64,000 nucleotides of DNA, taken from Thermosediminibacter oceani DSM 16646. Its GTDB lineage: Bacteria; Bacillota; Thermosediminibacteria; Thermosediminibacterales; Thermosediminibacteraceae. The stretch is from the NCBI RefSeq assembly GCF_000144645.1, contig NC_014377.1, positions 1,922,001-1,986,000 on the forward strand, written 5' to 3'. The position numbers and the translations under genes are program-made. Below, in pieces: positions 4,249 to 60,232 of the stretch (position 1 is the stretch's first letter; the number at the start of each line of letters is the position of its first letter). The notes under the pieces are model-generated. The model did not search any database and was not told the DNA's origin. It saw nothing but the letters and a program-made list of their open reading frames with translations.

Positions 4249-4322
4249 GCAAAAGCTAGTACAAAAATCATCAGCTTTTTAGTAAAATTAAAGAAGATAC
4301 AAAAATATTGTGGGGCGATGAA

Positions 4323-5783
4323 ATGTTAACGAAGAAAAATCGAGAAATAATAGAGCAGGTAGAATTAGTAAGCATCGATAGCTTAGTACCTCAAGACCAT
4401 CTCCTTAGGGCAGTAGAAGAAAGCATCGACTTTAATTTCATTTATGATGAAGTAAAAGACCTATATAGCGAAAATACAGGAAGACCTAGTATTGACCCGG
4501 TAGTGTTAATTAAGCTACTCATGCTCCAAGCATTGTATGGAATCCGCTCCATGCGCCAAACCATCAGAGAAGTAGAAGTCAATGTAGCTTACCGTTGGTT
4601 TTTAGGCTATGGATTACAAGAAAAAATACCTCACTTTTCAACTTTTGGAAAAAACTATGAACGGCGGTTTAAGGAAAGTGATCTATTTGAAAAGATATTC
4701 GAGCGGGTGTTGATGGAAGCAATAGAATGCGGGTTTGTTAAAACAGATGCAGTATTTATCGATGCTACTCACATAAAAGCCAGTGCCAATAAGAATAAAT
4801 ATATCGAGAAAGTCGCTAAGCAACGGACTCAAAAATATAAGGAAGAACTTTTAAAAGAAATCAACGCCGAACGGGAAGCAAACGGTAAAAAGCCCTTTGA
4901 AGAAGAAGATGATGATGACGATAACAACAAAGGAGAAAATAGCTCTAAAAAAGTCAGGGTAAGCACCACAGATCCTGAAAGTGGGATGTTTCAAAAAGGG
5001 GAAAAAGAGCGCTGCTTTGCCTACACAGCTTCTGTAGCCTGTGACCGGAACAACTTTGTCCTTGGTGTCAAAATAGCACCTGGAAATGTTCATGACAGCC
5101 AGGTATTCTCCGATTTATTTCAAGAAGTAAACGATAAATTTTCTAAAATAGAGGCGGTAGTGGTTGATGCAGGCTACAAAACCCCCGGGATATGCAGAGA
5201 AATCATTGAGGCAGGAGCGCTTCCCGTTATGCCCTACAAGAGGCCGATGACCAAAGATGGTTACTTTAAAAAACGCGAATACGTCTATGACGAATATTAT
5301 GATTGTTACATATGCCCCAACAACCAAATATTAGAATACAGCACCACCAACCGGGCGGGATACCGGGAATATAGGAGCAACCCCCAAATATGCTGTAAAT
5401 GTCCCATGCGCCTACAGTGCACCAAAAGTAAAAATTACACAAAAATCATAACTCGGCATATATGGGAGCATTACATAGAAATAGCGGAAGATATAAGACA
5501 CACCCAATGGGGTAAAGAACTATACAAAATGCGCGGCCAGACCATCGAGCGGGTATTTGCCGATGCGAAGGAAAAGCATGGCATGCGCTATACAAATCTA
5601 CGAGGCTTGAGGAAAGTTGGACATTACCTCACGCTTCTTTTCGCATGCATGAATTTAAAAAAGCTGGCTTTATGGAAGAAAAGACGGGGAACGTTTCCGC
5701 CAACAGTCCCCGCTTTACATTCGTTTTTCTTAAAAATTTTCTTCGCCTTCAACAAAAAGCCGCTTTTAGGTTATGCATCCTAA
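4323..5783 (+). CDS. IS1182-family transposase
   Basis: A 486-residue DDE transposase. The N-terminal domain has the family motif VSIDSLVPQDHLLRAVEE; the RNase H fold has candidate catalytic acidic residues in VFIDATHIKASANK, VVVDAGYK and GQTIERVFADAKEKHG (last with the glutamate). A low-complexity acidic stretch (EEEDDDDDNN) lies near residue 195, and a cysteine cluster, CPNN..CCKCPMRLQC, precedes the C-terminal region. Start chosen at ATG 4323 with GGGG eight bases upstream; an in-frame TTG at 4308 is less likely. No frameshift or internal stop, so the enzyme may be active. Confidence 0.93.
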   Translation: MLTKKNREIIEQVELVSIDSLVPQDHLLRAVEESIDFNFIYDEVKDLYSENTGRPSIDPVVLIKLLMLQALYGIRSMRQTIREVEVNVAYRWFLGYGLQEKIPHFSTFGKNYERRFKESDLFEKIFERVLMEAIECGFVKTDAVFIDATHIKASANKNKYIEKVAKQRTQKYKEELLKEINAEREANGKKPFEEEDDDDDNNKGENSSKKVRVSTTDPESGMFQKGEKERCFAYTASVACDRNNFVLGVKIAPGNVHDSQVFSDLFQEVNDKFSKIEAVVVDAGYKTPGICREIIEAGALPVMPYKRPMTKDGYFKKREYVYDEYYDCYICPNNQILEYSTTNRAGYREYRSNPQICCKCPMRLQCTKSKNYTKIITRHIWEHYIEIAEDIRHTQWGKELYKMRGQTIERVFADAKEKHGMRYTNLRGLRKVGHYLTLLFACMNLKKLALWKKRRGTFPPTVPALHSFFLKIFFAFNKKPLLGYAS

Positions 5784-5793: not shown

Positions 5794-5805
5794 GTCTACA
5801 AGCTG

Positions 5806-5830
5806 AAGGTTGGGCAAGTCGCCCAACCTT
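5806..5830 (-). repeat. Right copy of the 25-bp hairpin direct repeat (terminator of pilO side)
   Basis: Identical to 4186-4210. On the plus strand it is followed by a T-rich tract. It lies 20 bases beyond the pilO stop and can still end the pil operon transcript as a hairpin. Confidence 0.8.
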
Positions 5831-5850
5831 TTCATTTTGCCACCGCATTT

Positions 5851-7110
5851 TTATTTTTTCGCTGGCTCTTCCGCTACAAATTTCATATTTGCCAGGGCTG
5901 CCGCAACACGGTCATAGTCTCCCGGTTCGATTTCCTTCCATTCAACCCGTACTGTCAGGCGTTTCACACCTTTCACGTTCAATTCCACGTAATACGGATA
6001 AGCGCCGGGCTTGAGAACGGGCGTCTTCAGGAGTTCGCGCTCATCGCCCAAAAAAGTCAGCACGAAACTGCCGCTGCTGTTTTGGGTATCATCCTCTACG
6101 CCGGCAAAACCACGCAAAACACTATATCGCGCCTGCAAATCCATAACAGCTTCTACCACCGGCCTATTTTTATCAACTTCCACAACTACACCGCGACCGA
6201 ATTCCCTTCCCGCTATGGCTATTTTCCTGGAGCCAACGGAATAAAAGGGCCCCACATTGCGCAACACCTTTGCCCCCTCAAGCCACGGAAGCGCTATCCG
6301 ATTGCTTTTGCCGTCAATTGATGGAAAGGTATAGCTGGAAATGGCGGGAATTGAAAGGGGCACGTCTTTTTGGGGAGTAGGAGTATCCGGGACTTTAGGC
6401 AAAGCCGGTGTTTCAGGTGAAGGAGGAGATAGTTGGGGTAATTGTTCATGCGGTTTTTCCGGCCGGTTGACCGCCACCGCCGGTTCAAAGATATTCTTCC
6501 GGCTCTGAGGCAAGATTTTTTGTTCATCATTGCGGTCATCACTTAATGGAATGCTTTCACCTTCCACCCCTATTTTAAAAAGATCTATAACAAAACCGGC
6601 CTCCACTTCCCCCAGCTTTTCACTCCCAGCCGAAATTTTGAGCTCCCGAATTTCAGTCATTGCCGGCAACGTATCAAGGTACAGCAAATAGGTCATAATG
6701 CTCGGGTAATCGCCTGACACGGTAACCTTGAACGGCTGCACGCTGAAAATTCCCCTTTTTTCCTCCTGCATCGGCTGGAAAAGCTTCACCCGGACTCCCG
6801 GTTCCTTGGGCTGGGCCGCCAGTAAAAAGGAATCCATATCATCGAAAGCAACGCCAAGCTTTTTCTTGGTTTCGGCGAGTTCCATCTCTGCAATTTCCAC
6901 ATTTTTTTTCAGAACCGGTAAGCTGCCGGCAGTCTCCCGGGTGGAAGCTAGCTCTGCCGTTTCCTCCCGCATCCGGGCTTTTAACTGGATATAGTAGGGC
7001 AAACGCTGGGCGAAGATAAACTTCTGTATAAAAAACAGGACAAGCGATACAACCAGGATGATTATCAATACTTTTTCCCGCCGGCTTAAGTTTATGGTCT
7101 GTAGCCTCAT
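5851..7110 (-). CDS. pilO: Type IV pilus inner-membrane protein PilO-like, with C-terminal extension
   Basis: A 419-residue protein, last gene of the pilus cluster. Residues about 12-32 (EKVLIIILVVSLVLFFIQKF) are the single transmembrane helix, followed by a coiled coil and a ferredoxin-like periplasmic-type domain typical of PilO, which pairs with PilN to form the alignment subcomplex. A proline-rich linker (about 225-250) leads to a second, C-terminal domain not found in short PilO proteins, making it roughly twice the usual length. Start ATG 7110 has GGAAGGA upstream. It lies 38 bases after pilN. Assignment relies on position after pilM-pilN and topology more than on motif. Confidence 0.8.
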   Translation of the reverse strand: MRLQTINLSRREKVLIIILVVSLVLFFIQKFIFAQRLPYYIQLKARMREETAELASTRETAGSLPVLKKNVEIAEMELAETKKKLGVAFDDMDSFLLAAQPKEPGVRVKLFQPMQEEKRGIFSVQPFKVTVSGDYPSIMTYLLYLDTLPAMTEIRELKISAGSEKLGEVEAGFVIDLFKIGVEGESIPLSDDRNDEQKILPQSRKNIFEPAVAVNRPEKPHEQLPQLSPPSPETPALPKVPDTPTPQKDVPLSIPAISSYTFPSIDGKSNRIALPWLEGAKVLRNVGPFYSVGSRKIAIAGREFGRGVVVEVDKNRPVVEAVMDLQARYSVLRGFAGVEDDTQNSSGSFVLTFLGDERELLKTPVLKPGAYPYYVELNVKGVKRLTVRVEWKEIEPGDYDRVAAALANMKFVAEEPAKK

Positions 7111-7148
7111 CCCGATCCTTCCTTCCTCTACCCCGGTGTCCGGAAGTC

Positions 7149-7718
7149 TTACTGCTTTGCTTTTCCGGCAAGCGCATTAGTTTGTCTTAAGTCCGCTGTT
7201 ATACTGAATTCCAGGACGGTTTCTTCGCCGGTTACATCCTGTACCGACTCCAACCTAACGTTTTCCAGAAACGGCTGGTCCTTCAGTGCGAAAAAAAACC
7301 TTCCCGCTGCCGCAAGATCCAAAGACCGCCCCGTAATTTTAACTTGCTGTTCCCCGTTTACCTCCAGCCCTGTCAGCCACACTTCCGGCGGAACAGCATC
7401 GGTCAAAGTAATCAGCAGCTCCGACCTTTTTTGACGGCCTTTCGCGAGTTTTTCCAGCTCCGCCTTCTGCTGGCGAAGGCTGTTTAGCTTATTTTCCGCC
7501 TCTTTCACCGCTTCTACCTGCTGCCGGTAAAAAGTAACCTGCTTTTCGATTTCCGTCAGGCGATTTTCCATCAACCACGTATGAACCAGCAGAAACGAAT
7601 ATGCAGAAAAGAGAAGCACTAATACCGAGATCAGGATTAAAACCGGCTTGGACCGGACCAAAAAAATCCGCCTGCTGGAAGGCCTTAACTCCTGCGGAAG
7701 CAAGTTTATAGACGCCAT
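7149..7718 (-). CDS. pilN: Type IV pilus assembly protein PilN
   Basis: A 189-residue bitopic membrane protein. The cytoplasmic N-terminus MASINLLPQELRP is the conserved INLLP peptide that binds the PilM groove; a transmembrane helix follows (about residues 28-50), then a coiled coil (EIEKQVTFYRQQVEAVKEAE) and a small globular domain. It starts five bases after the pilM stop, with AAGGGAGAG upstream, so translation is coupled. It links the cytoplasmic actin-like PilM ring to PilO. Confidence 0.92.
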   Translation of the reverse strand: MASINLLPQELRPSSRRIFLVRSKPVLILISVLVLLFSAYSFLLVHTWLMENRLTEIEKQVTFYRQQVEAVKEAENKLNSLRQQKAELEKLAKGRQKRSELLITLTDAVPPEVWLTGLEVNGEQQVKITGRSLDLAAAGRFFFALKDQPFLENVRLESVQDVTGEETVLEFSITADLRQTNALAGKAKQ

Positions 7719-7723
7719 AACCC

Positions 7724-8620
7724 TTATCTCTCCCTTAAAGCCAGCCCCACCGCCACCGCAAATTCCGGCCCCAGCAAAAACGGGCTGGCAATTTCCGCCG
7801 GTAAATCAAGTTCTAAACCGAAATAATCCTTTATCCCTTCAAGGTAGGCTCCTCCGCCTGTCAGGTATAACCCTGCCGGACTAAAACCGCTTCCACCCTG
7901 GGAACGATAAAAATCCACAGAACGCCGCACTTCCTGAATCAGATCTACGGCCCGATTTAAACCGGTATAAAGGGTGCCACCTCTCAGCTCCCGGCAACCC
8001 ATTCTGACTGTCCTGCTGAAAAGAAGCCGGCTCCCGCGCGCCAGCACAACATGGCTCCACTGCTCACCTATGTCCAGTATGATGGATTCCTTTTCTTCAC
8101 CGGTGGTTCCCAGGGCGCGGCACAGGGCTGCGGGTATCAGGTCCAATGCTTCCAGCTCAAGACCGGCTTCCTTAAAAAGGTGATGATACTGGATTACCTG
8201 TTCTCTGGGCGTTGCCGCCAGCAGGACCAGCATCTGGCCGGGATGGCCTTCCGGCTCCCTATCCAGTATGGCGAAATCCAGCACCATATCCTCCGTCCCC
8301 ACGGGAAGATAGCGCTCCGCCTCATACTGTAACCCGGCCCGCAAGTCCTTTTCCGGCATGCGCGGAAGGCGCAGGTATCGCACAACCACCCGCTCGCCGC
8401 TAACGGCGGCCACCGCTCTCCGGCCCCGCCAGCCCGTTTGCTGTACCGCTTCGGCCAGGGCGGCTATCATTTCCGTTATATTATCCCATCCTCCGGCAGG
8501 AGCAGGAACCGCCCCTTTAGCCAGGAGGCGGTCTCCCCTCACCACCGCCACTTTGATCCGGGCAGTCCCCAGATCCACTCCCAGCAATCCTTTTTGCCGC
8601 CTCAAGCTAAGCCAGTGCAC
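7724..8620 (-). CDS. pilM: Type IV pilus assembly protein PilM (actin-like ATPase)
   Basis: A 298-residue protein with the actin/FtsA fold. GLLGVDLGTARIKVAVV is the phosphate-1 motif; SIILDIGEQWSHVVL and YLTGGGAYLEGI are the phosphate-2 and adenosine motifs. Slightly shorter than typical PilM (about 340). GTG start at 8620 with GGGGGTC upstream. Forms a cytoplasmic ring binding the INLLP tail of PilN, connecting the membrane complex to the PilB/PilT motors. Followed by pilN after five bases. Confidence 0.93.
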   Translation of the reverse strand: MHWLSLRRQKGLLGVDLGTARIKVAVVRGDRLLAKGAVPAPAGGWDNITEMIAALAEAVQQTGWRGRRAVAAVSGERVVVRYLRLPRMPEKDLRAGLQYEAERYLPVGTEDMVLDFAILDREPEGHPGQMLVLLAATPREQVIQYHHLFKEAGLELEALDLIPAALCRALGTTGEEKESIILDIGEQWSHVVLARGSRLLFSRTVRMGCRELRGGTLYTGLNRAVDLIQEVRRSVDFYRSQGGSGFSPAGLYLTGGGAYLEGIKDYFGLELDLPAEIASPFLLGPEFAVAVGLALRER

Positions 8621-8694: not shown

Positions 8695-9918
8695 CTATTG
8701 CTCGCTCCAGCTTTCAATTTCAATGCTTGTAGGCCCGCCACCGCTGCCCCCGCCAAAAGCCAACCCGATTAATTCAGGATGGCTATCGATCAGTACAGGG
8801 TTGGAGTATATTGTCAGTTTATTTGTGTTTTCTATTAGTCGCACCAAAACTCCCCCATTTAGTACTACTTTATTATCACAAAATAATTTACCGTTGGCTA
8901 TTATTAAGGCGTCTATGATAGAGTCCGAACCTTTTTTATTTATATTTACCTGACCACCTAAGGAAATCAAAACCAACAGGTCTTCATCAGGGGTGTTAGC
9001 CTTCAGGTCGTCGGTAACATCGATATTACCGCTAGTTACGATAACCGCCTGTCCGCTATACCTACCTGAAATTTTAACATTTCCATTCACAAAATAGATA
9101 CCGCTATATTCGGTAGTATCTTCGCTCTTTCCACCCTTCTCTTTTCCCGGGTCATTTATAGGAAAAGTTGTATCTTGCCCAAAATATTTGCCAGTCATCT
9201 CAGCTTGTTGTCGGTACCAATCTTCTCTCAAATCTGGAAAATCCGGAATTGCTTGGTGATATTCGGTGATTTGACAGTTATTCAGTTCTGCATCTTTATT
9301 AATAGTGATTTTACCAGAAGCGTAAATATTAAAATTTTCAATTGTCGATTTGTCACCAATATTTAGGTTGCCGTTAACATAAATTACCGGTTTTGGTTCT
9401 TGTGAACCTATGATCGAAATATGTTTTAACAAATTAATATCAGAATTCTGATCTTCCGGTAAGAGGCTGACACCTTTAAGCAATTCCGCCGGGCTGCCGG
9501 AGGTATTGATGCGCACCTTTACGGTCAAAGTCTCGCGCGCCTTATTAAAAGTTCCCACGGAAGTTATCTTCACAACGGTACCGGATTCTTCCTCGATTTC
9601 TTCGACGGTCACTTTCTCAATGCTGCCGCCGGCAGAAGGTTCGGGATAAGGTTCATTCGAAATCAAAGTCAAAGAGCCCCCAGGAGGAATCTGATTCACA
9701 ACTCCCGGGTTTTGCCTAATCATAACCAGGGCCCTCTCCACACCGGCATCGGCTGCGTAGTATGCCTGCAGGCGGTTTCGCTGCCGGGCGGCTGCCTGCC
9801 TATGGCTGGCAGTCAAAGTTACAGTGGCACTGCCGAGTATGACCACCACCATCAGCACAAGCATGACCAGGACGAGGGCCTGTCCCCGTTCCGCGCCCTG
9901 GCTCTCCTTTATATTCAT
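8695..9918 (-). CDS. PilX-like minor-pilin/pilus-associated protein with beta-helix-like body
   Basis: A 407-residue protein. The N-terminus ERGQALVLVMLVLMVVVILG is a pilin-like hydrophobic helix without the usual G-F-T-L processing site, as in PilX_N-type proteins. The rest is rich in repeated short strands (GNLNIGDKST, GKITINKDAEL, GNVKISGRYSGQAV) suggesting a beta-solenoid adhesin-like body, ending in a glycine-rich tail. Start chosen at ATG 9918 with GGGG seven bases upstream; the in-frame TTG at 9924 is weaker. Stop TAG, followed two codons later by TAA. Lies with the other minor-pilin genes; probably part of the pilus tip or priming complex (inference). Confidence 0.75.
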   Translation of the reverse strand: MNIKESQGAERGQALVLVMLVLMVVVILGSATVTLTASHRQAAARQRNRLQAYYAADAGVERALVMIRQNPGVVNQIPPGGSLTLISNEPYPEPSAGGSIEKVTVEEIEEESGTVVKITSVGTFNKARETLTVKVRINTSGSPAELLKGVSLLPEDQNSDINLLKHISIIGSQEPKPVIYVNGNLNIGDKSTIENFNIYASGKITINKDAELNNCQITEYHQAIPDFPDLREDWYRQQAEMTGKYFGQDTTFPINDPGKEKGGKSEDTTEYSGIYFVNGNVKISGRYSGQAVIVTSGNIDVTDDLKANTPDEDLLVLISLGGQVNINKKGSDSIIDALIIANGKLFCDNKVVLNGGVLVRLIENTNKLTIYSNPVLIDSHPELIGLAFGGGSGGGPTSIEIESWSEQ

Positions 9919-9938
9919 GTGCAAACCCCGGCACCCCC

Positions 9939-10481
9939 TCAGTTAAGGGCCCTGATCTTGACGGAAGTAGTCATCTTGACCTCAGGCCCGTTACCCTTTT
10001 TCCCGGTGAGAGTGATCTTAACCCGGCGAATGTTTTTGTGGTCCTCATCGGACAATGGAAATTGCAATTCATCCTCGTCTTTTTCGTCGTAGTAAGCCAG
10101 CTGAAAATCTGTTACATACTCAGCCACCGGCTCTTTTTTCCCGTCTATTTCCCGAATCAATCGTTTTTCGCGGGAATCCAAGTAATAACTTACGTTCTTC
10201 GTACTATTATCCGAATCTCCCCCAGGTTCCATTACAGCCAAACGTATCCATGATTCCCCGGCTTCGACCAGCCCCCTGGCGGACCTTATTTCCCCGCTCA
10301 TCCTTTCCAAGGCGATGCGCAGATTTTCTTGAACATCGACTCTCGCCTCATCCTTATGCCAGGACAGAACGGCCTGCTGGTATAGGGCCAGCGCCGCCCC
10401 CACCACCAGGCTGAAGATGGAAACTGCCACGACGGCCTCGACCAGGGTAAAACCGCATTCCTTCGTGCGCCTGCCCGTCAT
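9939..10481 (-). CDS. Minor pilin, PilW/GspJ-like prepilin
   Basis: A 180-residue prepilin. The leader ends MTGRRTKECG and the class III signal continues FTLVEAVVAVSIFSLVVGA, so the PilD cleavage site is G10/F11 and the methylated residue F11. The body is short and strand-rich, with RMSGEIRSARGLV typical of GspJ/PilW minor pseudopilins. Its ATG overlaps the upstream pilV-like stop by four bases (ATGA), so the two are translationally coupled. Likely part of the tip complex that primes pilus assembly. Confidence 0.85.
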   Translation of the reverse strand: MTGRRTKECGFTLVEAVVAVSIFSLVVGAALALYQQAVLSWHKDEARVDVQENLRIALERMSGEIRSARGLVEAGESWIRLAVMEPGGDSDNSTKNVSYYLDSREKRLIREIDGKKEPVAEYVTDFQLAYYDEKDEDELQFPLSDEDHKNIRRVKITLTGKKGNGPEVKMTTSVKIRALN

Positions 10482-10906
10482 CTCCAGTCACCCCTGTCCA
10501 TGGTCAGGGAGAGGATTTCCCGGCTGGTCGCGGCATCGTAAATTTTTATCGTTATCGTTTTCAAGTTTTTTTTATCGTTTTCAAAGACGCTAATCCGGTA
10601 AGTATATTCCGGATAACCGGTAAAGGGACGCGGCGGTTGATCGGGGTCGGTGGGTTCCCCAGCCTCAAGGCTTGCATAAGGTTTGTTCTTCAGTTCCTCC
10701 AGCTTACCTTGGGCCAGATTTAAGGCCGTTATTAGGTCTCGCGACTCGGCCGTCCATCGCGCACCGTGTATAAAGGCGTTCATAAGGGGAACAATAGCAG
10801 CGACGAGAACCAGGGTGGCTATTAACACCTCCACCAGGGTAAAACCGCCGTTATTCGGGTTATCCTGCTGACTTGTTTTCCCCTTAACTTTTGGCGCCCA
10901 AATCAC
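10478..10906 (-). CDS. Minor pilin, PilV/GspI-like prepilin
   Basis: A 142-residue prepilin with a rather long basic leader and the processing site GG/FTLVEVLIATLVLVAAIVPL at about residues 21-22. LAQGKLEELKNKPY matches the GspI/PilV helix following the transmembrane stretch. GTG start at 10906 behind AAGGAGGG; the ATG between them is out of frame. Coupled by ATGA to the PilW-like gene. Substrate of PilD; predicted minor component of the pilus. Confidence 0.85.
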   Translation of the reverse strand: MIWAPKVKGKTSQQDNPNNGGFTLVEVLIATLVLVAAIVPLMNAFIHGARWTAESRDLITALNLAQGKLEELKNKPYASLEAGEPTDPDQPPRPFTGYPEYTYRISVFENDKKNLKTITIKIYDAATSREILSLTMDRGDWR

Positions 10907-11002: not shown

Positions 11003-11767
11003 CTAGAACAGAAAAACCTGCTTGTACCAGTCAATAATATGTGAACCCCAGAGTGCCGCAGCAAGCGTGCCCGCTGCAATAAAGGGGCCAAAGGGAATGG
11101 CATCCTTCGGCCCTTTCAGCCTGAAAAGCAGGAGAACGGCAGCTACCAGGCCCCCGGTAATCACCGCGAGAAACAGAGCCAGAGCCGCCAGCGGCCAACC
11201 TATAAAAAGACCCGCTACCGCGGCCAGCTTTACGTCACCGCAACCCATTCCGCCTTTACTAAATACGACAATAGCAAATAAAAATCCTGCTCCCGCCGCG
11301 CTTCCCGCCAGGGACGACCAGACCCCCACATCCCTGGCCGCAAACCCCAGAACGATGGCGGCCGCAAAGCCGGCCAGTACAAGGCGGTCCGGAATAAGGT
11401 AGTGTTCCAGGTCGATGAAGGCAGCCGCTATTAAGACGGCGCCGAGAAAAAGATACTTGACCAGGGCCGGCACCGGTCCATAACGATAAAACAGCGCGGC
11501 AAACACCGCGCCTGTCAACAATTCCACTACAGGATACCGCGGGGAAATTCGCGCCCCGCAGTAGCGGCACCTCCCCCGCAGGGCGAGGTAACTTGCCACC
11601 GGCACGAGATCGCACCAGGCCAGCACGTGCTCGCAGGCCGGACAACGGGATCGCCCCCAAACCACCGTCTCTCCCCGCGGCAGGCGGTAGATGACGACAT
11701 TGAGGAAACTGCCGGTGAAAAGGCCGAGTAAGAAGAAAAACCCTACCATGAAAAACATAATTTTCAC
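11003..11767 (-). CDS. pilD: Prepilin leader peptidase / N-methyltransferase
   Basis: A 254-residue polytopic membrane aspartyl protease of the GxGD family that removes prepilin leaders and methylates the new N-terminus. The N-terminal methylase part has the zinc-binding pairs CPAC and CRYC (about residues 44-72). The catalytic aspartates are in AAAFIDLEHYLIPD and in GMGCGDVKL, here GCGD instead of the more common GxGD with another residue, which is allowed. Six to eight hydrophobic helices. It lies between pilA and the minor-pilin genes it would process. Stop TAG. Confidence 0.94.
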   Translation of the reverse strand: MKIMFFMVGFFFLLGLFTGSFLNVVIYRLPRGETVVWGRSRCPACEHVLAWCDLVPVASYLALRGRCRYCGARISPRYPVVELLTGAVFAALFYRYGPVPALVKYLFLGAVLIAAAFIDLEHYLIPDRLVLAGFAAAIVLGFAARDVGVWSSLAGSAAGAGFLFAIVVFSKGGMGCGDVKLAAVAGLFIGWPLAALALFLAVITGGLVAAVLLLFRLKGPKDAIPFGPFIAAGTLAAALWGSHIIDWYKQVFLF

Positions 11768-11944: not shown

Positions 11945-12460
11945 TTAATCTTTGGAAATTAAAATATATACTACATTGCTGGTTTGGCTGTCTTTCATAA
12001 CCATATTTCCGCCCAGGTCAGCCCTTAATCTGTCGTAAAGATTGTCCGGAACATAATCAACTTCTAGATACCTAGCAGAATCTCCACTTCCCTGGCCATC
12101 CCAGTTTACCGCGCTATCATTTTTGTAAGTATACGTCCCGCCCCACGGGTTCTTGTTTGGCCAGCGATCCAGGTATGGCCCGTTCCATCCAGGATAACTA
12201 TTATCATCAGGCTTATCAACAAGGTAAGAGTAATCATCACTTTGCGGCCATTTTCCAGTATCCGCATAAAAATTCAACACTGCCGTTTTAATCGACTTAT
12301 AATCTGCCTCAGCCGCTACAACTTTGCTCCTCTCGATAGCATTGAAGGCATTTGGAAGAACTACGGCAGCCAGGATAGCAATGATGGCTATGACTACCAA
12401 TAGCTCTACCAGGGTAAAGCCCCGCTGGTCTTTTACTTTTTTCCGAAAGCATTTCATCAT
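11945..12460 (-). CDS. pilA: Major type IV pilin (prepilin)
   Basis: A 171-residue prepilin. Leader MMKCFRKKVKDQRG, then FTLVELLVVIAIIAILAAVV: cleavage after the glycine, with glutamate five residues on, as in class IIIa pilins of Gram-positives. The globular part has GKWPQSDDY and KNPWGGTYTYKN, the motif common in G-type pseudopilins and Firmicute pilins. Start chosen at ATG 12460, ten bases after GGGGGG; the in-frame TTG at 12469 is unlikely. The stop TAA is followed by 51 further in-frame sense codons (see findings). First pilin gene after pilC and under the predicted c-di-GMP riboswitch. Confidence 0.92.
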   Translation of the reverse strand: MMKCFRKKVKDQRGFTLVELLVVIAIIAILAAVVLPNAFNAIERSKVVAAEADYKSIKTAVLNFYADTGKWPQSDDYSYLVDKPDDNSYPGWNGPYLDRWPNKNPWGGTYTYKNDSAVNWDGQGSGDSARYLEVDYVPDNLYDRLRADLGGNMVMKDSQTSNVVYILISKD

Positions 12461-12555
12461 AAGAAACAACGCCCCCCATCAATTTGTTTTATAAAATGGT
12501 TCAGATTACTTTACCGGTTTTCCGCCGATTTCAACCCCCCTTGCAAAATTATATA

Positions 12556-13770
12556 TTATCCTATATTTCCTATATTCCCAAGTATCTGGAAGTAGGGCAG
12601 CAATATGGAAATCACAATAAATCCCACCGCACCGCCCAGCATGGCGATCAATAAAGGCTCTATCAGAGCAGACAGGCGGCTGACGGCTTCTTTCACTTCA
12701 CGGTCGCACAATTCGCTGATTTTCGCCAGAAGGAAATCAAGGGCACCGGTTTCTTCGCCTACGGCGATCATTCCGATGATCATCGGAGGGAAAATACCGC
12801 TCTCCTTCAGCGGGTCCGCAATGCCCTTACCATCCCTGACACTTTCCTGTGCCCTAGCTATGGCTTCAGCTACTACCCGGTTTCCCACCGTTCGCCGTAC
12901 TACATCCATAGCCTGGAGAATCGGAACCCCGCTTCTAAGGAGCGTGCCCAGGCTACGGCTGAAGCGGGAAAGGACCGCCTTCTTGTGGAGCGGGCCAAAT
13001 ACCGGCAGTTTCAGCAAAATACCGTCCAGGCGGTATCTGGCGTTATCTGTTTTGAGGACCCCGTAAGCCACATAAGCCAGAATACCTGCCGCAAAGATCA
13101 GGATAGGCCATCCCCGCCGGAGAGCTCTGCTTACGCCCATCACAATCCGGGTCGGGAGGGGCAATGGCACCCCCAAGGCGTTCAGCATGTTTTGAAAAGC
13201 CGGGAGAACGAAGACCAGCAAAACGATCAAAACCGCCAAAGCCACCGATACGACTAAAGCCGGATACGTAAGGGCGGACTTGACCTTCTCCTGAAGCTCA
13301 TGCTCCCGTTCCAGGTGGGCAGCCAACTCCTCGAGGGCCTCATCGAGGGACCCTCCCAGCTCAGCCGCCTCTATTGCATGCACCATTATCGGAGGAAAAA
13401 CCTGCAACCGGGCCAGCGCTTCGTGAAAAGTCTCACCTCCTTCAAGGCTTCTCACAATCTCTTCAATGTTCCTGCGCAATATTTTATTTTCAGCCTGCAT
13501 GGCCAGGATTTGGAGAGCCGGGACGATCGGAAGTCCCGCTCCGAGCATGGTGGCCAGTTGCCGGCAGAAAACCGCAAGATCCTGTTTTCCAACGCGGCGT
13601 AAAAGTCGTCCTGAATTTATCGCAAACCGTTCCCGCCCGGGGCGAACTTCCACGATAAATAAACCCTTATCCCTTAAAAGCCGGACGACAGCCGCCTCAT
13701 TTTCCGCTTCTACAGTACCGACCACCGGTTGACCAAAAGCGTCGCGCGCACGATAACTGTAAATCGCCAT
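12556..13770 (-). CDS. pilC: Type IV pilus inner-membrane platform protein PilC
   Basis: A 404-residue GspF/PilC protein with two T2SF domains (about residues 70-190 and 270-395) and three membrane helices, including ALTYPALVVSVALAVLIVLL. The N-terminus MAIYSYRARDAFG and motifs FCRQLATMLGAGLPIVPAL and FSRSLGTLLRSGVPILQAM are characteristic. It is the rotating platform that PilB and PilT act on to insert or remove pilins. First gene after the riboswitch/terminator leader, so its expression and that of the genes downstream should respond to it. Confidence 0.95.
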   Translation of the reverse strand: MAIYSYRARDAFGQPVVGTVEAENEAAVVRLLRDKGLFIVEVRPGRERFAINSGRLLRRVGKQDLAVFCRQLATMLGAGLPIVPALQILAMQAENKILRRNIEEIVRSLEGGETFHEALARLQVFPPIMVHAIEAAELGGSLDEALEELAAHLEREHELQEKVKSALTYPALVVSVALAVLIVLLVFVLPAFQNMLNALGVPLPLPTRIVMGVSRALRRGWPILIFAAGILAYVAYGVLKTDNARYRLDGILLKLPVFGPLHKKAVLSRFSRSLGTLLRSGVPILQAMDVVRRTVGNRVVAEAIARAQESVRDGKGIADPLKESGIFPPMIIGMIAVGEETGALDFLLAKISELCDREVKEAVSRLSALIEPLLIAMLGGAVGFIVISILLPYFQILGNIGNIG

Positions 13771-13790
13771 ATCTCCACCTACACTGTCCC

Positions 13791-13849
13791 AAAAAGACGC
13801 ACCGGGCTGCTTTGGAAGAACGATTCATACCGTCCCCCGGCAGCCCGGC
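13791..13849 (-). terminator. Riboswitch-controlled rho-independent terminator upstream of pilC
   Basis: On the minus strand GCCGGGCTGC (13849-13840) can pair with GCAGCCCGGT (13810-13801), followed by GCGTC and five T (13795-13791). The first arm lies within the 3' part of the GEMM aptamer, so aptamer and terminator are mutually exclusive: ligand binding should favour read-through into pilC (an ON switch, by inference). Confidence 0.75.
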
Positions 13850-13923
13850 GGCCGATAGGCTTTATTACCCTTAGGCCCGTAGCTTTGCGCCCCCGGCTTT
13901 CACCGGGTTTGCCCTTTACAGGG
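13829..13923 (-). ncRNA. Cyclic-di-GMP-I (GEMM) riboswitch aptamer, pilC leader
   Basis: The minus-strand RNA shows the GEMM-I elements in order: GGGCAAACC; a hairpin CCCGG-UGAAAG-CCGGG with a GNRA-type GAAA loop; GCGCAAAGC; the tetraloop receptor GGGCCUAAGG; a second stem; and GCCGGGCUGCC closing the junction. These are the conserved joining sequences and the docking pair of the class I c-di-GMP sensor. It lies in the 179-base gap between pilT and pilC with an overlapping terminator downstream. It would couple expression of pilC, pilA and the downstream genes to c-di-GMP, while pilB and pilT are transcribed ahead of it. Confidence 0.88.
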
Positions 13924-13949
13924 ATTTTTATAAATTTAATTCGGCAAAA

Positions 13950-14978
13950 TTATCCAAAATCCTTCTTCAATTGATATAAATCCGGGTGAATTAATCCCTT
14001 TTCACGCAATTGCCTGAGCGACATTTCCATGGTCTGCATTCCGAATCGGCCGCCCGTCTGCATCAAAGAAACGATCTGGTGGGTTTTCCCTTCCCTTATA
14101 AGATTGCGCACAGCAGGGGTAGCAATCAAAACTTCCACAGCCACCACCCGTCCTTTGCCGTCAGCCCGGGGCAGCAGTTGCTGGGTAATGACTCCGGCCA
14201 GAGTATCCGAAAGCTGGATTCTGATCTGGTTCTGCTGGTGCGGAGGAAAAACGTCTATAATCCGGTCAATGCTCTGGACAGCACTGCCGGTATGAAGGGT
14301 AGCCAGCACCAGGTGCCCGGTTTCCGCCGCAGTAATTGCCGTGGCTACCGTCTCCAGGTCCCGCATCTCGCCCACCAGAATAACGTCGGGGTCCTGGCGC
14401 AGGGCAGCCCTTAAAGCGCTCGCAAAGGAAGGAGAGTCACTTCCGATTTCCCGCTGGTTCACGATACTCCTTTTATGCGTATGCAGGTACTCTATGGGGT
14501 CCTCCAGCGTAATTATGTGACAGCTGCGCCGCTCGTTAATCCGGTCGATCATGGCCGCCAGAGTCGTGGTCTTACCGCTGCCGGTAGGCCCGGTAACCAG
14601 GACCAGGCCGTGGGGCTGATCGGCCAGCTCGCCTACCACCGGGGGTAGCCCCAACTCGTCAAGGCTGTGAATAACATCGCCAACCAGGCGTAAGGCAGCC
14701 CCTATACTTCCGCGCTGGTGAAAAATATTTACCCGAAAACGCCCCAATCCCGCTGCCGAGTAGGCCAGGTCCAGTTCCTTTCGCTCAATAAATTCTTCCC
14801 ACCGTTCACCCAAAATCTCCCTTGCCAGTGCTTCAGTATCAGAAGCAGTCAAAGGAGGCCACTGCCCCTGAGGTTCGAGCCGTCCGTGATGCCGGAAGAC
14901 CGGCGGTAAACCCACCGTCAGATGTATATCCGATGCCCCTTTTTTTATGGCTTCTCCCAGTATTTCCCGCAAATGCAT
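13950..14978 (-). CDS. pilT: Type IV pilus retraction ATPase PilT
   Basis: A 342-residue hexameric motor that powers pilus retraction. Walker A VTGPTGSGKTTTLAAMID, Asp box ITLEDPIEYLH, Walker B ALRQDPDVILVGEMRD and the His box ATLHTGSA are all present, and the C-terminal AIRNLIREGK-type motif appears as AVRNLIREGKTHQIVSLMQT, diagnostic for PilT over PilB. Start chosen at ATG 14978, with AGGTG nine bases upstream; the GTG at 14990 is in frame too. Unusually, pilT lies in the same reading frame as pilB, separated only by the pilB TAG stop and four codons. Confidence 0.94.
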   Translation of the reverse strand: MHLREILGEAIKKGASDIHLTVGLPPVFRHHGRLEPQGQWPPLTASDTEALAREILGERWEEFIERKELDLAYSAAGLGRFRVNIFHQRGSIGAALRLVGDVIHSLDELGLPPVVGELADQPHGLVLVTGPTGSGKTTTLAAMIDRINERRSCHIITLEDPIEYLHTHKRSIVNQREIGSDSPSFASALRAALRQDPDVILVGEMRDLETVATAITAAETGHLVLATLHTGSAVQSIDRIIDVFPPHQQNQIRIQLSDTLAGVITQQLLPRADGKGRVVAVEVLIATPAVRNLIREGKTHQIVSLMQTGGRFGMQTMEMSLRQLREKGLIHPDLYQLKKDFG

Positions 14979-15002
14979 CAAAACTATCACCTGACCTCTG
15001 CG

Positions 15003-16700
15003 CTAAAATTCGCCCATGGACACGCGAATCACTTCTTCCACTGTGGTTAATCCCTGGCCGGCCTTTAAAAGTCCGTCTTCCCGCAAGGTAACCATTCCGC
15101 CGGCGACGGCAGCCTTTTTTATTTCCGTAACGGGTGCTTTGGCAGCCACGAGAGAGCGAATTTCATCGGTCATCACCAGGATTTCCTGGATAGCAGTCCT
15201 GCCCTGGTATCCTGTGTAATTGCACTGCCGGCAGCCGCGGCCCCGGTAAAACTTTTTGTCTATGTTTTCCCCGAGGAAGGCGTAGGCCGCATCGCCGGGC
15301 GCCGGTTCGTAGGGCTCGCGGCACTGCGGGCAGATGAGGCGGACAAGACGCTGGGCCACCACACCGATCAGGGAAGAATTTACGAGAAACGGCTCCACAC
15401 CCATGTCCAGCAGCCTTGTCACCGCCCCGGCCGCGTCGTTGGTGTGCAGCGTGCTGAAAACGAGGTGGCCCGTTGTAGCCGCCCGGACGGCTATATCAGC
15501 CGTCTCCCTGTCGCGAATCTCCCCTACCATTATAATATCCGGGTCCTGGCGCAAAATAGCCCTCAAGCCCGCTGCAAAATCCAGGCCTACTTTGGGGTTT
15601 ACCTGCACCTGATTGATGCCGGGCAAAAGGTATTCTACAGGATCTTCTATGGTGATTATATTTTTTTCCGGGGAACTCAGGGCGTTTAAAGTGGCGTAGA
15701 GGGTGGTGGTCTTGCCGCTGCCGGTGGGACCGGTGATCAAAATCATTCCGTAAGTGCTGCGTATCAAACTTTCATACTGCTCCTTGGTAGCGGGCGAAAA
15801 GCCCAGCTTATCGAGAGTAAGGAGCATAGTTTTTTTATCCAGGATACGCAGCACAACTTTTTCGCCATAAACGGTGGGCATGGTGGAAACGCGCAGGTCT
15901 ATACTGCGCCTCTCCAGCGTTATCTGGAAACGGCCGTCCTGAGGCAGCCGCTTTTCGGCGATATCCATACCCCCCATAATTTTTATTCGGGAAGTCAGGC
16001 TGCTAAGCACCCCCGGTGGCAGGCGAAGCACTTCCCGCAAAAGCCCGTCCACCCGGAAGCGCACCAGCACGCTCCCTTCCTGAGGTTCGATATGGATATC
16101 GCTGGCTCTGGCGCGCACGGCCTGGGCAATCAGCCGGTTCACCAGCTGAACTGCCGGCGCACCTTCTATACCGGTCTCGGCCGCTTCATCCAGGTCGAAG
16201 GAGTCCCATGCGGCCGCAGAGGTATCCGCCGCTGTCTCCTCAAAACCGGCCATGGCCTGATTTTCCAGGAAGGACTGCCAGAAACGGGACAAAGCCGTTT
16301 CAATCTCTCTTTCCGAGGCGATGGCCGGTATGATTTCAAATCCCGTAGCCAGGCGCAGGTCATCCAGTGCTGTAAGGTTTAAAGGGTCCGCCATGGCCAC
16401 CAGCAGTCTATTCCCGTCCCGGCGGACGGGTATAGCCATGTGGCGGCGAGCCAGGCGCTCCGGTATCAGCCGTACCACCTCAGGTTCCAGCTGGTAATCT
16501 TCCACTACCACTTTAGGTATACCCAGCTGAAATTCCAGGACCTCCAGGATATCCTTCTCGCTCACATACCCCAGGCGCGTAAGTACCTTGCCCAGGCGCT
16601 CTCCGCTCCGCTTTTGTTCATTTAAGGCCTTCTCCAGCTGTTCGGGGGTAAGCATGCCCGCCTCCACCAGCAGGTCCCCCAGCCGGCGTTTACCGTCCAC
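15003..16700 (-). CDS. pilB: Type IV pilus extension ATPase PilB
   Basis: A 565-residue motor for pilus assembly. The N-terminal MshEN/GspE-N domain RRLGDLLVEAGMLTPEQLE (about residues 5-150) is of the type that binds c-di-GMP in some PilB/MshE proteins. The motor core has Walker A ITGPTGSGKTTTLYATLNAL, ITIEDPVEYLLPG, Walker B ILRQDPDIIMVGEIRD and STLHTNDA. A tetracysteine zinc motif, CPQC..CRQC, near residues 465-510 is typical of PilB. GTG start at 16700 behind AAGGTGG. First gene of the cluster. Stop TAG, in frame with pilT. Confidence 0.95.
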   Translation of the reverse strand: MDGKRRLGDLLVEAGMLTPEQLEKALNEQKRSGERLGKVLTRLGYVSEKDILEVLEFQLGIPKVVVEDYQLEPEVVRLIPERLARRHMAIPVRRDGNRLLVAMADPLNLTALDDLRLATGFEIIPAIASEREIETALSRFWQSFLENQAMAGFEETAADTSAAAWDSFDLDEAAETGIEGAPAVQLVNRLIAQAVRARASDIHIEPQEGSVLVRFRVDGLLREVLRLPPGVLSSLTSRIKIMGGMDIAEKRLPQDGRFQITLERRSIDLRVSTMPTVYGEKVVLRILDKKTMLLTLDKLGFSPATKEQYESLIRSTYGMILITGPTGSGKTTTLYATLNALSSPEKNIITIEDPVEYLLPGINQVQVNPKVGLDFAAGLRAILRQDPDIIMVGEIRDRETADIAVRAATTGHLVFSTLHTNDAAGAVTRLLDMGVEPFLVNSSLIGVVAQRLVRLICPQCREPYEPAPGDAAYAFLGENIDKKFYRGRGCRQCNYTGYQGRTAIQEILVMTDEIRSLVAAKAPVTEIKKAAVAGGMVTLREDGLLKAGQGLTTVEEVIRVSMGEF

Positions 16701-59884: not shown

Positions 59885-59974
59885 AAGTCTATTCCTACCT
59901 TTCTCCTCTTGTATTTTCAAGGTTCGATCAACAACGGCTTTTGAGCCGGTATTTTCAAACCATACTCAATTCTG

Positions 59975-60118
59975 CTGAGGACCCCTTTGTCCCGGCGATC
60001 GCTCACCGGTTTTGTAGGCCTCTTACGGTGGCAGTCCACCGTGGGGCATCCGCCGAAAACTCGATAAACCCCATCCTCGTCAGCTCCCGAAGAAGTTCTC
60101 CGAGAGCTCAGGCGCTTT
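59975..60118 (-). ncRNA. glmS self-cleaving ribozyme/riboswitch
   Basis: On the minus strand the leader reads AAAA-GCGCC (cleavage between 60116 and 60115), a P2 stem-loop GAGCTC...GGGAGCT, then GACGAGGATGGGGTTTATCG, AGTTTTCGGCGGATG and CCCACGGTGG...CCACCGTAAG, and the P4 region GGGACAAAGGGGTCC. These are the catalytic-core strings of the glmS ribozyme (GACGAGG, GGGGTTTATCGAG, TTTCGGCGGATG). Bound GlcN6P acts as cofactor and triggers cleavage and mRNA decay. 3' limit approximate. Confidence 0.95.
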
Positions 60119-60232
60119 TCCGTTGCTTAAAACCCACGTGATTCCTTCGCGGCCTCGCACCCCCTCCTGCTGTTTTTCACCGTGTCGAGCGGCTCCTTTC
60201 GACCCCATCACCTCCTTTAAATGGTGATAGCC

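Follow-up and report, generated by a model that had tools for sequence, protein, structure and literature searches.

A predicted c-di-GMP ON riboswitch at the pilT-pilC junction of Thermosediminibacter oceani and related Firmicutes commonly adjoins a sigma-H-type promoter motif

The type IV pilus genes of Thermosediminibacter oceani DSM 16646 lie in a minus-strand cluster in which a leader separates the retraction ATPase gene pilT from pilC, raising the question of how the genes beyond this leader are controlled in relation to the motor genes in front of it. A first-pass annotation, made from the sequence alone, had proposed that the leader is a c-di-GMP riboswitch that allows transcription of pilC and the genes downstream. 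Here, we address this question in a 64,000-nucleotide stretch of DNA (the window; NC_014377.1, positions 1,922,001 to 1,986,000), to which coordinates refer unless a locus is named, and in related genomes.

RESULTS

The pilC leader contains a c-di-GMP-I aptamer that overlaps a predicted terminator

Pfam matches back the gene order that had been proposed, i.e., pilB, pilT, pilC, a pilin gene, pilD, minor-pilin genes, pilM, and pilN; pilT was assigned based on synteny and the absence of an MshEN domain. The cluster comprises the following genes:

15003-16700, minus strand: pilB, assembly ATPase with MshEN domain (Pfam T2SSE, 480 bits; MshEN, 79 bits)
13950-14990, minus strand: pilT, retraction ATPase, upstream of the switch (Pfam T2SSE, 175 bits)
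12556-13770, minus strand: pilC, first gene past the switch, ATG at 13770 (Pfam T2SSF, 216 bits)
11945-12469, minus strand: pilin gene with N-methylation motif, pilA-like (Pfam N_methyl, T2SSG)
11003-11767, minus strand: pilD, prepilin peptidase (Pfam A24_N_bact, Peptidase_A24)
8695-10906, minus strand: three minor-pilin genes at 10478-10906, 9939-10481, and 8695-9924 (Pfam N_methyl, PilX_N)
5851-8620, minus strand: pilM, pilN, and probable pilO (Pfam PilM_2, PilN; pilO by position only)

The first-pass annotation had placed the leader in the GEMM-I class and had suggested a covariance-model search as a check. In this search, the region at 13835-13922 (minus strand), directly after pilT and 65 nt ahead of the pilC start, gave significant matches to RF03167 (c-di-GMP-I-GGC; 71.6 bits, E = 5.5e-15; Rfam cmscan, window) and to RF01051 (c-di-GMP-I; 76.0 bits, E = 3.3e-15; whole genome, 2,280,035 bases), for which the gathering threshold is 35 bits. 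As had also been stated, both motor genes (13950-16700, minus strand) lie upstream of this aptamer. The leader is more stably folded than shuffled versions (z = -3.1), and the aptamer has the following elements:

13919-13924, minus strand: P1 5' strand UCCCUG, with partner CGGGGG at 13834-13839 (fold)
13892-13907, minus strand: P2 with GAAA-type loop (Rfam alignment and fold)
13913, minus strand: G20, ligand-pocket base (fold)
13886, minus strand: A47, ligand-pocket base (fold)
13840, minus strand: C92, partner of the ligand guanine or, alternatively, of terminator G13810 (fold)

The role of C92 was assigned by analogy to C75 of the pilM switch and C87 of the Cd1 switch (PMC9262584). The segments singled out by the first-pass annotation map to 13840-13849 (GCCGGGCTGC), 13801-13810 (GCAGCCCGGT), and 13791-13797 (U-tract, TCTTTTT), and they form part of the following arrangement:

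13840-13849, minus strand: terminator 5' arm GCCGGGCUGC, made up of the P3 3' strand and C92 (fold, duplex test)
13814-13838, minus strand: apical part of the terminator, with the inner hairpin GGGGGACGG..UCGUUCUUCC in T. oceani (fold)
13799-13810, minus strand: terminator 3' arm GCAGCCCGGUGC (duplex test)
13791-13797, minus strand: U-tract UCUUUUU (sequence)
13773-13780, minus strand: pilC ribosome-binding site, outside the terminator stem (sequence)

In the terminator fold, the 5' arm pairs with GCAGCCCGGU (13801-13810) ahead of the U-tract, and C92 is captured by G13810. As in the pilM switch, the aptamer 3' strand doubles as the terminator 5' arm and takes the ligand-pairing C with it. The duplex between the aptamer 3' strand and the terminator 3' arm was equalled in 0 of 500 shuffles. 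The terminator loop contains an ATG, in GGTATGAATCG, but a leader peptide starting there was rejected: on reading the sequences of the two Thermosediminibacter species, the frame is not shared.

The junction aptamer is conserved in five families, while the terminators are lineage specific

Among 26 genomes of the same class, seven contain a close pilC orthologue (G000, G018-G022, and G024), and in all seven the aptamer is located downstream of pilT and just upstream of pilC; it is absent from this junction at the more distant PilC homologues in these 26 genomes. Among 299 genomes sampled across the phylum, inspection of the best PilC loci identified 13 further junction aptamers, i.e., at 8/8 loci in family f18, at 3/3 in f38, and at one each in f39 and f114, giving 20 loci from 20 genomes in five families. 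These loci were picked by PilC similarity and are phylogenetically non-independent, and their number is not a frequency estimate. The closest named relative by PilC is T. litoriperuensis (85% identical); the only other match in the search for named pilC relatives is an unrelated metagenome-assembled genome.

At 19 of the 20 loci, the pocket bases are GAC, and in 19/20, C92 is in a terminator stem before a U-rich tract in the best local fold. The stems themselves differ by lineage (CCGGGCUGC/GCAGCCCGG in Thermosediminibacter, UGCCGGGAA/UUCCCGGCA in the sister genus g2, and others in f18 and f38). For sixteen of the 20 terminator duplexes, no more than 16 of 500 shuffles reached the same strength; this test gave weaker or negative results for L014, L015, L056, and L070, and the L070 terminator does not overlap the aptamer. 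We consider the combination of constant logic with changing terminator sequence the strongest argument that the element would be functional.

Two relatives depart from this pattern. The pilC switch at the same junction in L059 (1324-1407; G099, f38) has A20, the base of the cGAMP type, and no Ser-type GGDEF protein was found among the readable cyclases of its genome. In another family, L067 (2991-3076; G060) carries a c-di-GMP-II riboswitch between pilC and a pilin gene, i.e., another aptamer class near the equivalent position.

A predicted sigma-H-type promoter adjoins the switch

The first-pass annotation had overlooked a predicted sigma-H-type promoter beside the switch, which overlaps the pilT stop codon and immediately precedes the aptamer:

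13957-13965, minus strand: sigma-H-like -35 element GAAGGATTT, within the pilT end (match to RNAGGAWWW)
13937-13945, minus strand: sigma-H-like -10 element GCCGAATTA, after an 11-nt spacer (match to RNNGAATWW)

Compared with the sigma-H consensus (RNAGGAWWW / RNNGAATWW; PMC8510167), the region 13937-13965 matches RNAGGAWWW-N11/12-RNNGAATWW at 15/15 positions and is the sole full match in the window (0.11 expected). Matches of at least 13/15 were found at 14 of the 20 loci (Thermosediminibacter, 2/2; f18, 8/8; f38, 3/3; f39, 1/1), with a constant spacing of 11-12 nt across these four families; none was found at the five g2 loci or the single f114 locus. A looser form of the motif, itself partly derived from these loci, has 10 copies in the genome versus 0 in a reversed control, and one copy lies ~60 nt ahead of spo0A. 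In Bacillus subtilis, spo0A is a classical sigma-H target. The genome encodes SigH (376 bits, above the cut-off).

Based on this match, pilC and the downstream genes probably have a predicted sigma-H promoter of their own, followed by the c-di-GMP gate. With this promoter next to it, the switch probably heads a pilC transcript of its own and would be more than an attenuator within one long operon. The alternative that the same ON switch acts wholly inside an operon transcribed from pilB, with the sigma-H match being incidental, is unlikely in view of the recurrence of this match at constant spacing at 14 of 20 loci. Nevertheless, it fits with the good extended -10 element (TGATATAAT) before pilB, behind the terminator of the upstream gene, with the close spacing of pilB and pilT, and with g2, in which no sigma-H promoter was seen at the junction and the P1 strand of the aptamer contains the pilT stop codon. 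Therefore, the g2 switch may act as an attenuator within the operon or be transcribed from a different promoter, and we infer that promoter use varies by lineage.

Two other readings of the region in front of P1 were rejected. For a sigma-A promoter right before P1, the -10-like boxes present at several loci (TATAAT in L014) are too close, and transcripts would lose the P1 5' strand; a promoter scan gave 14 matches, none of them at the T. oceani switch. Reading TGNCGAA as a Spo0A box was dropped because sigma-H accounts for the whole two-part motif without such a box.

The sigma-H-like motif was also observed in leaders of CRISPR arrays. In four separate arrays of T. oceani (L097, L098, L099, and L104; G000), it lies exactly 90 nt ahead of the first repeat, and it likewise occurs in array leaders of two related genomes (L144-L146 in G019 and L148 in G024). 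Transcription of these arrays may be under a sporulation/transition sigma factor.

Downstream of the switch, reading of the gap sequences between pilC and the cluster end revealed no terminators, and a hairpin at 5805-5831 closes the pilM-pilN-pilO stretch. With no terminator in the gaps, pilC, the pilin gene, pilD, the three minor-pilin genes, pilM, pilN, and probable pilO may share one gate, an operon length at which internal promoters are possible.

c-di-GMP is the likely ligand

The aptamer pocket is G20/A47/C92 (GAC). G, A, and C at these positions are the canonical c-di-GMP set, as in the Vc2 structure, and the ligand type that had been proposed is upheld by these bases. Two GGDEF proteins are encoded in the genome, a GGEEF diguanylate cyclase and a GGDEF-HD-GYP protein. 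Each has the canonical Asp instead of the Ser of cGAMP-making Hypr enzymes; no EAL protein was found in the genome. Because of the pocket bases and the Asp-type GGDEF proteins, c-di-GMP is the likely ligand.

The "GGC" label of RF03167 might suggest that the aptamer senses a different dinucleotide, be it 3',3'-cGAMP or an unknown one, but this is improbable. RF03167 is the best Rfam clan match by E-value in the window, but RF01051 scores higher in bits (76.0). On our own reading of the consensus, in which the variant name denotes bases 20/47/92, the label does not fit, since RF03167 has a consensus G in the column in which the pilC leader has A47 (Rfam alignment). GEMM-I switches of the cGAMP type have A at position 20, as the orthologue L059 does, but the T. 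oceani aptamer has G20 and neither GGDEF protein has the Hypr-marking Ser; based on pocket bases and cyclases, cGAMP was rejected as the ligand. The key C and G of the pocket and the position equivalent to 20 are also treated in PMC9262584.

Genome-wide, there are seven c-di-GMP-I matches, six above the cut-off, versus only two GGDEF proteins, which may make RNA a main output of c-di-GMP signalling in this organism. Of the other elements, L005 (1501-1586, minus strand; 51.7 bits), upstream of a flavin-reductase-like gene, has an altered pocket with U20 and C47 but keeps C92 and may sense another ligand. L007 (1501-1586, plus strand) is a weak match before flgB (33 bits, below the cut-off) with a terminator that, by eye, does not overlap the aptamer, and it may work in the opposite sense to the pilC switch, as an OFF switch; a transposase gene beside it is nearly identical to one found where the pilus cluster ends (4308-5783 in the window, plus strand). 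L002 (1501-1594, minus strand) precedes cheW and a chemoreceptor gene, ~2.4 kb from the GGDEF-HD-GYP gene, and L006 (1501-1589, minus strand), between two transposase genes, is nearly a copy of the L001 switch but degenerate, apparently a duplicate in decay. The window also contains a glmS ribozyme at 59968-60127 (minus strand; 118.9 bits, Rfam cmscan).

At the protein level, the MshEN-like N-terminal domain that had been noted in PilB is confirmed by the Pfam match (79 bits) and by two 24-residue RLG...Q c-di-GMP motifs (residues 6-29 and 35-58, separated by a 5-residue linker), detected with a relaxed pattern; M16, T41, Y45, and I51 deviate from the strict motif (as defined in PMC5013675). 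Control by c-di-GMP at both the RNA and the protein level is plausible.

The overlap of aptamer and terminator predicts an ON switch

At 65°C and before the terminator is made, the fold constrained to the aptamer is at most 0.9 kcal/mol from the best, and P1-P3 are able to form. Once the terminator is made, the difference increases from 0.9 to 13.9 kcal/mol (both values are model extrapolations), a pattern as expected for a kinetic switch. Both structures need one and the same strand, the 3' strand of the aptamer; bound aptamer and terminator are thus mutually exclusive, and the ligand is predicted to permit read-through. By design, the element would almost certainly act as a transcriptional ON switch, and the topology proposed earlier gains from the predicted C92-capturing terminator being kept at 19/20 loci. 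Given how stable the terminator is in the model, ligand rescue may be limited to a fraction of transcripts.

Some GEMM-I switches are OFF switches, e.g., Cd1 before flgB in Clostridioides difficile (PMC6366702). For the pilC leader, a ligand that reduces pilC expression or acts at the ribosome-binding site is very improbable: with a terminator built from the aptamer 3' strand, the bound aptamer excludes the terminator, and the ribosome-binding site at 13773-13780 lies beyond it. A decayed aptamer with a terminator that now merely insulates pilC would agree with the strong equilibrium preference for the terminator-containing fold but is hardly credible, as pocket and helices are kept across families while terminator sequences vary.

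DISCUSSION

We estimate the probability at roughly 80% that the pilC leader is a transcriptional c-di-GMP ON riboswitch heading a separate structural-pilus transcript. In this model, RNA polymerase, probably with sigma-H, would initiate at a presumed start a few bases ahead of P1. With c-di-GMP bound, P1, P2, and P3 would retain the aptamer 3' strand and C92 would pair with the ligand, so that no terminator forms and pilC, the pilin gene, pilD, the minor-pilin genes, and pilMN(O) are transcribed. In the ligand-free state, the 3' strand including C92 would pair with the terminator 3' arm before the U-tract, and transcription would end ahead of pilC. Control is probably kinetic, with the bound aptamer forming before the terminator 3' arm is made. 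Transcripts reading through from the pilB promoter would face the same gate; pilB and pilT, lying upstream, would escape it, and PilB may be tuned separately via MshEN and c-di-GMP. Based on these predictions, the cell should make the structural parts of the pilus only in the presence of c-di-GMP. Evenly balanced, in our view, is the broader proposal of a two-input gate in several Firmicutes families, in which the structural half of the pilus would be transcribed only with sigma-H active and c-di-GMP high, the motors pilB and pilT would be controlled separately, and the switch would have stayed fixed between pilT and pilC while the terminator was rebuilt in each lineage around the capture of C92.

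The riboswitch class and type IV pili as a target are already known. In the ON switch of Geobacter metallireducens pilM, terminator G102 captures C75, and this logic is proven (PMC9262584). The T. oceani switch shares with it the GEMM-I fold, the ON topology, the captured ligand-pairing C, and a type IV pilus operon as target; however, the pilM switch responds to cGAMP, has A at position 20, and heads pilM, whereas the T. oceani switch has G20 and sits at the pilT-pilC junction, preceded by a predicted sigma-H-type promoter. In the Firmicute C. difficile, Cdi-2-4 before pilA1 likewise links c-di-GMP to antitermination of type IV pilus genes, but it belongs to the unrelated aptamer class II and is placed before a pilin gene (PMC6366702). 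Cd1 shares aptamer class and ligand but is an OFF switch with a separate terminator and a flagellar target (PMC9262584, PMC6366702). In a literature search restricted to an open-access library, we found no prior description of a c-di-GMP riboswitch at the pilT-pilC junction; its location, its pairing with a sigma-H-type promoter, and the range of families that conserve it appear to be new.

The 20 natural terminators around one conserved aptamer provide a ready set for studying how expression platforms evolve under constant logic. For the organism, the analysis predicts that c-di-GMP would govern pilus building twice, at the RNA level from pilC onwards and at the protein level through PilB, and that the structural parts of the pilus would be tied to a sporulation/transition sigma factor.
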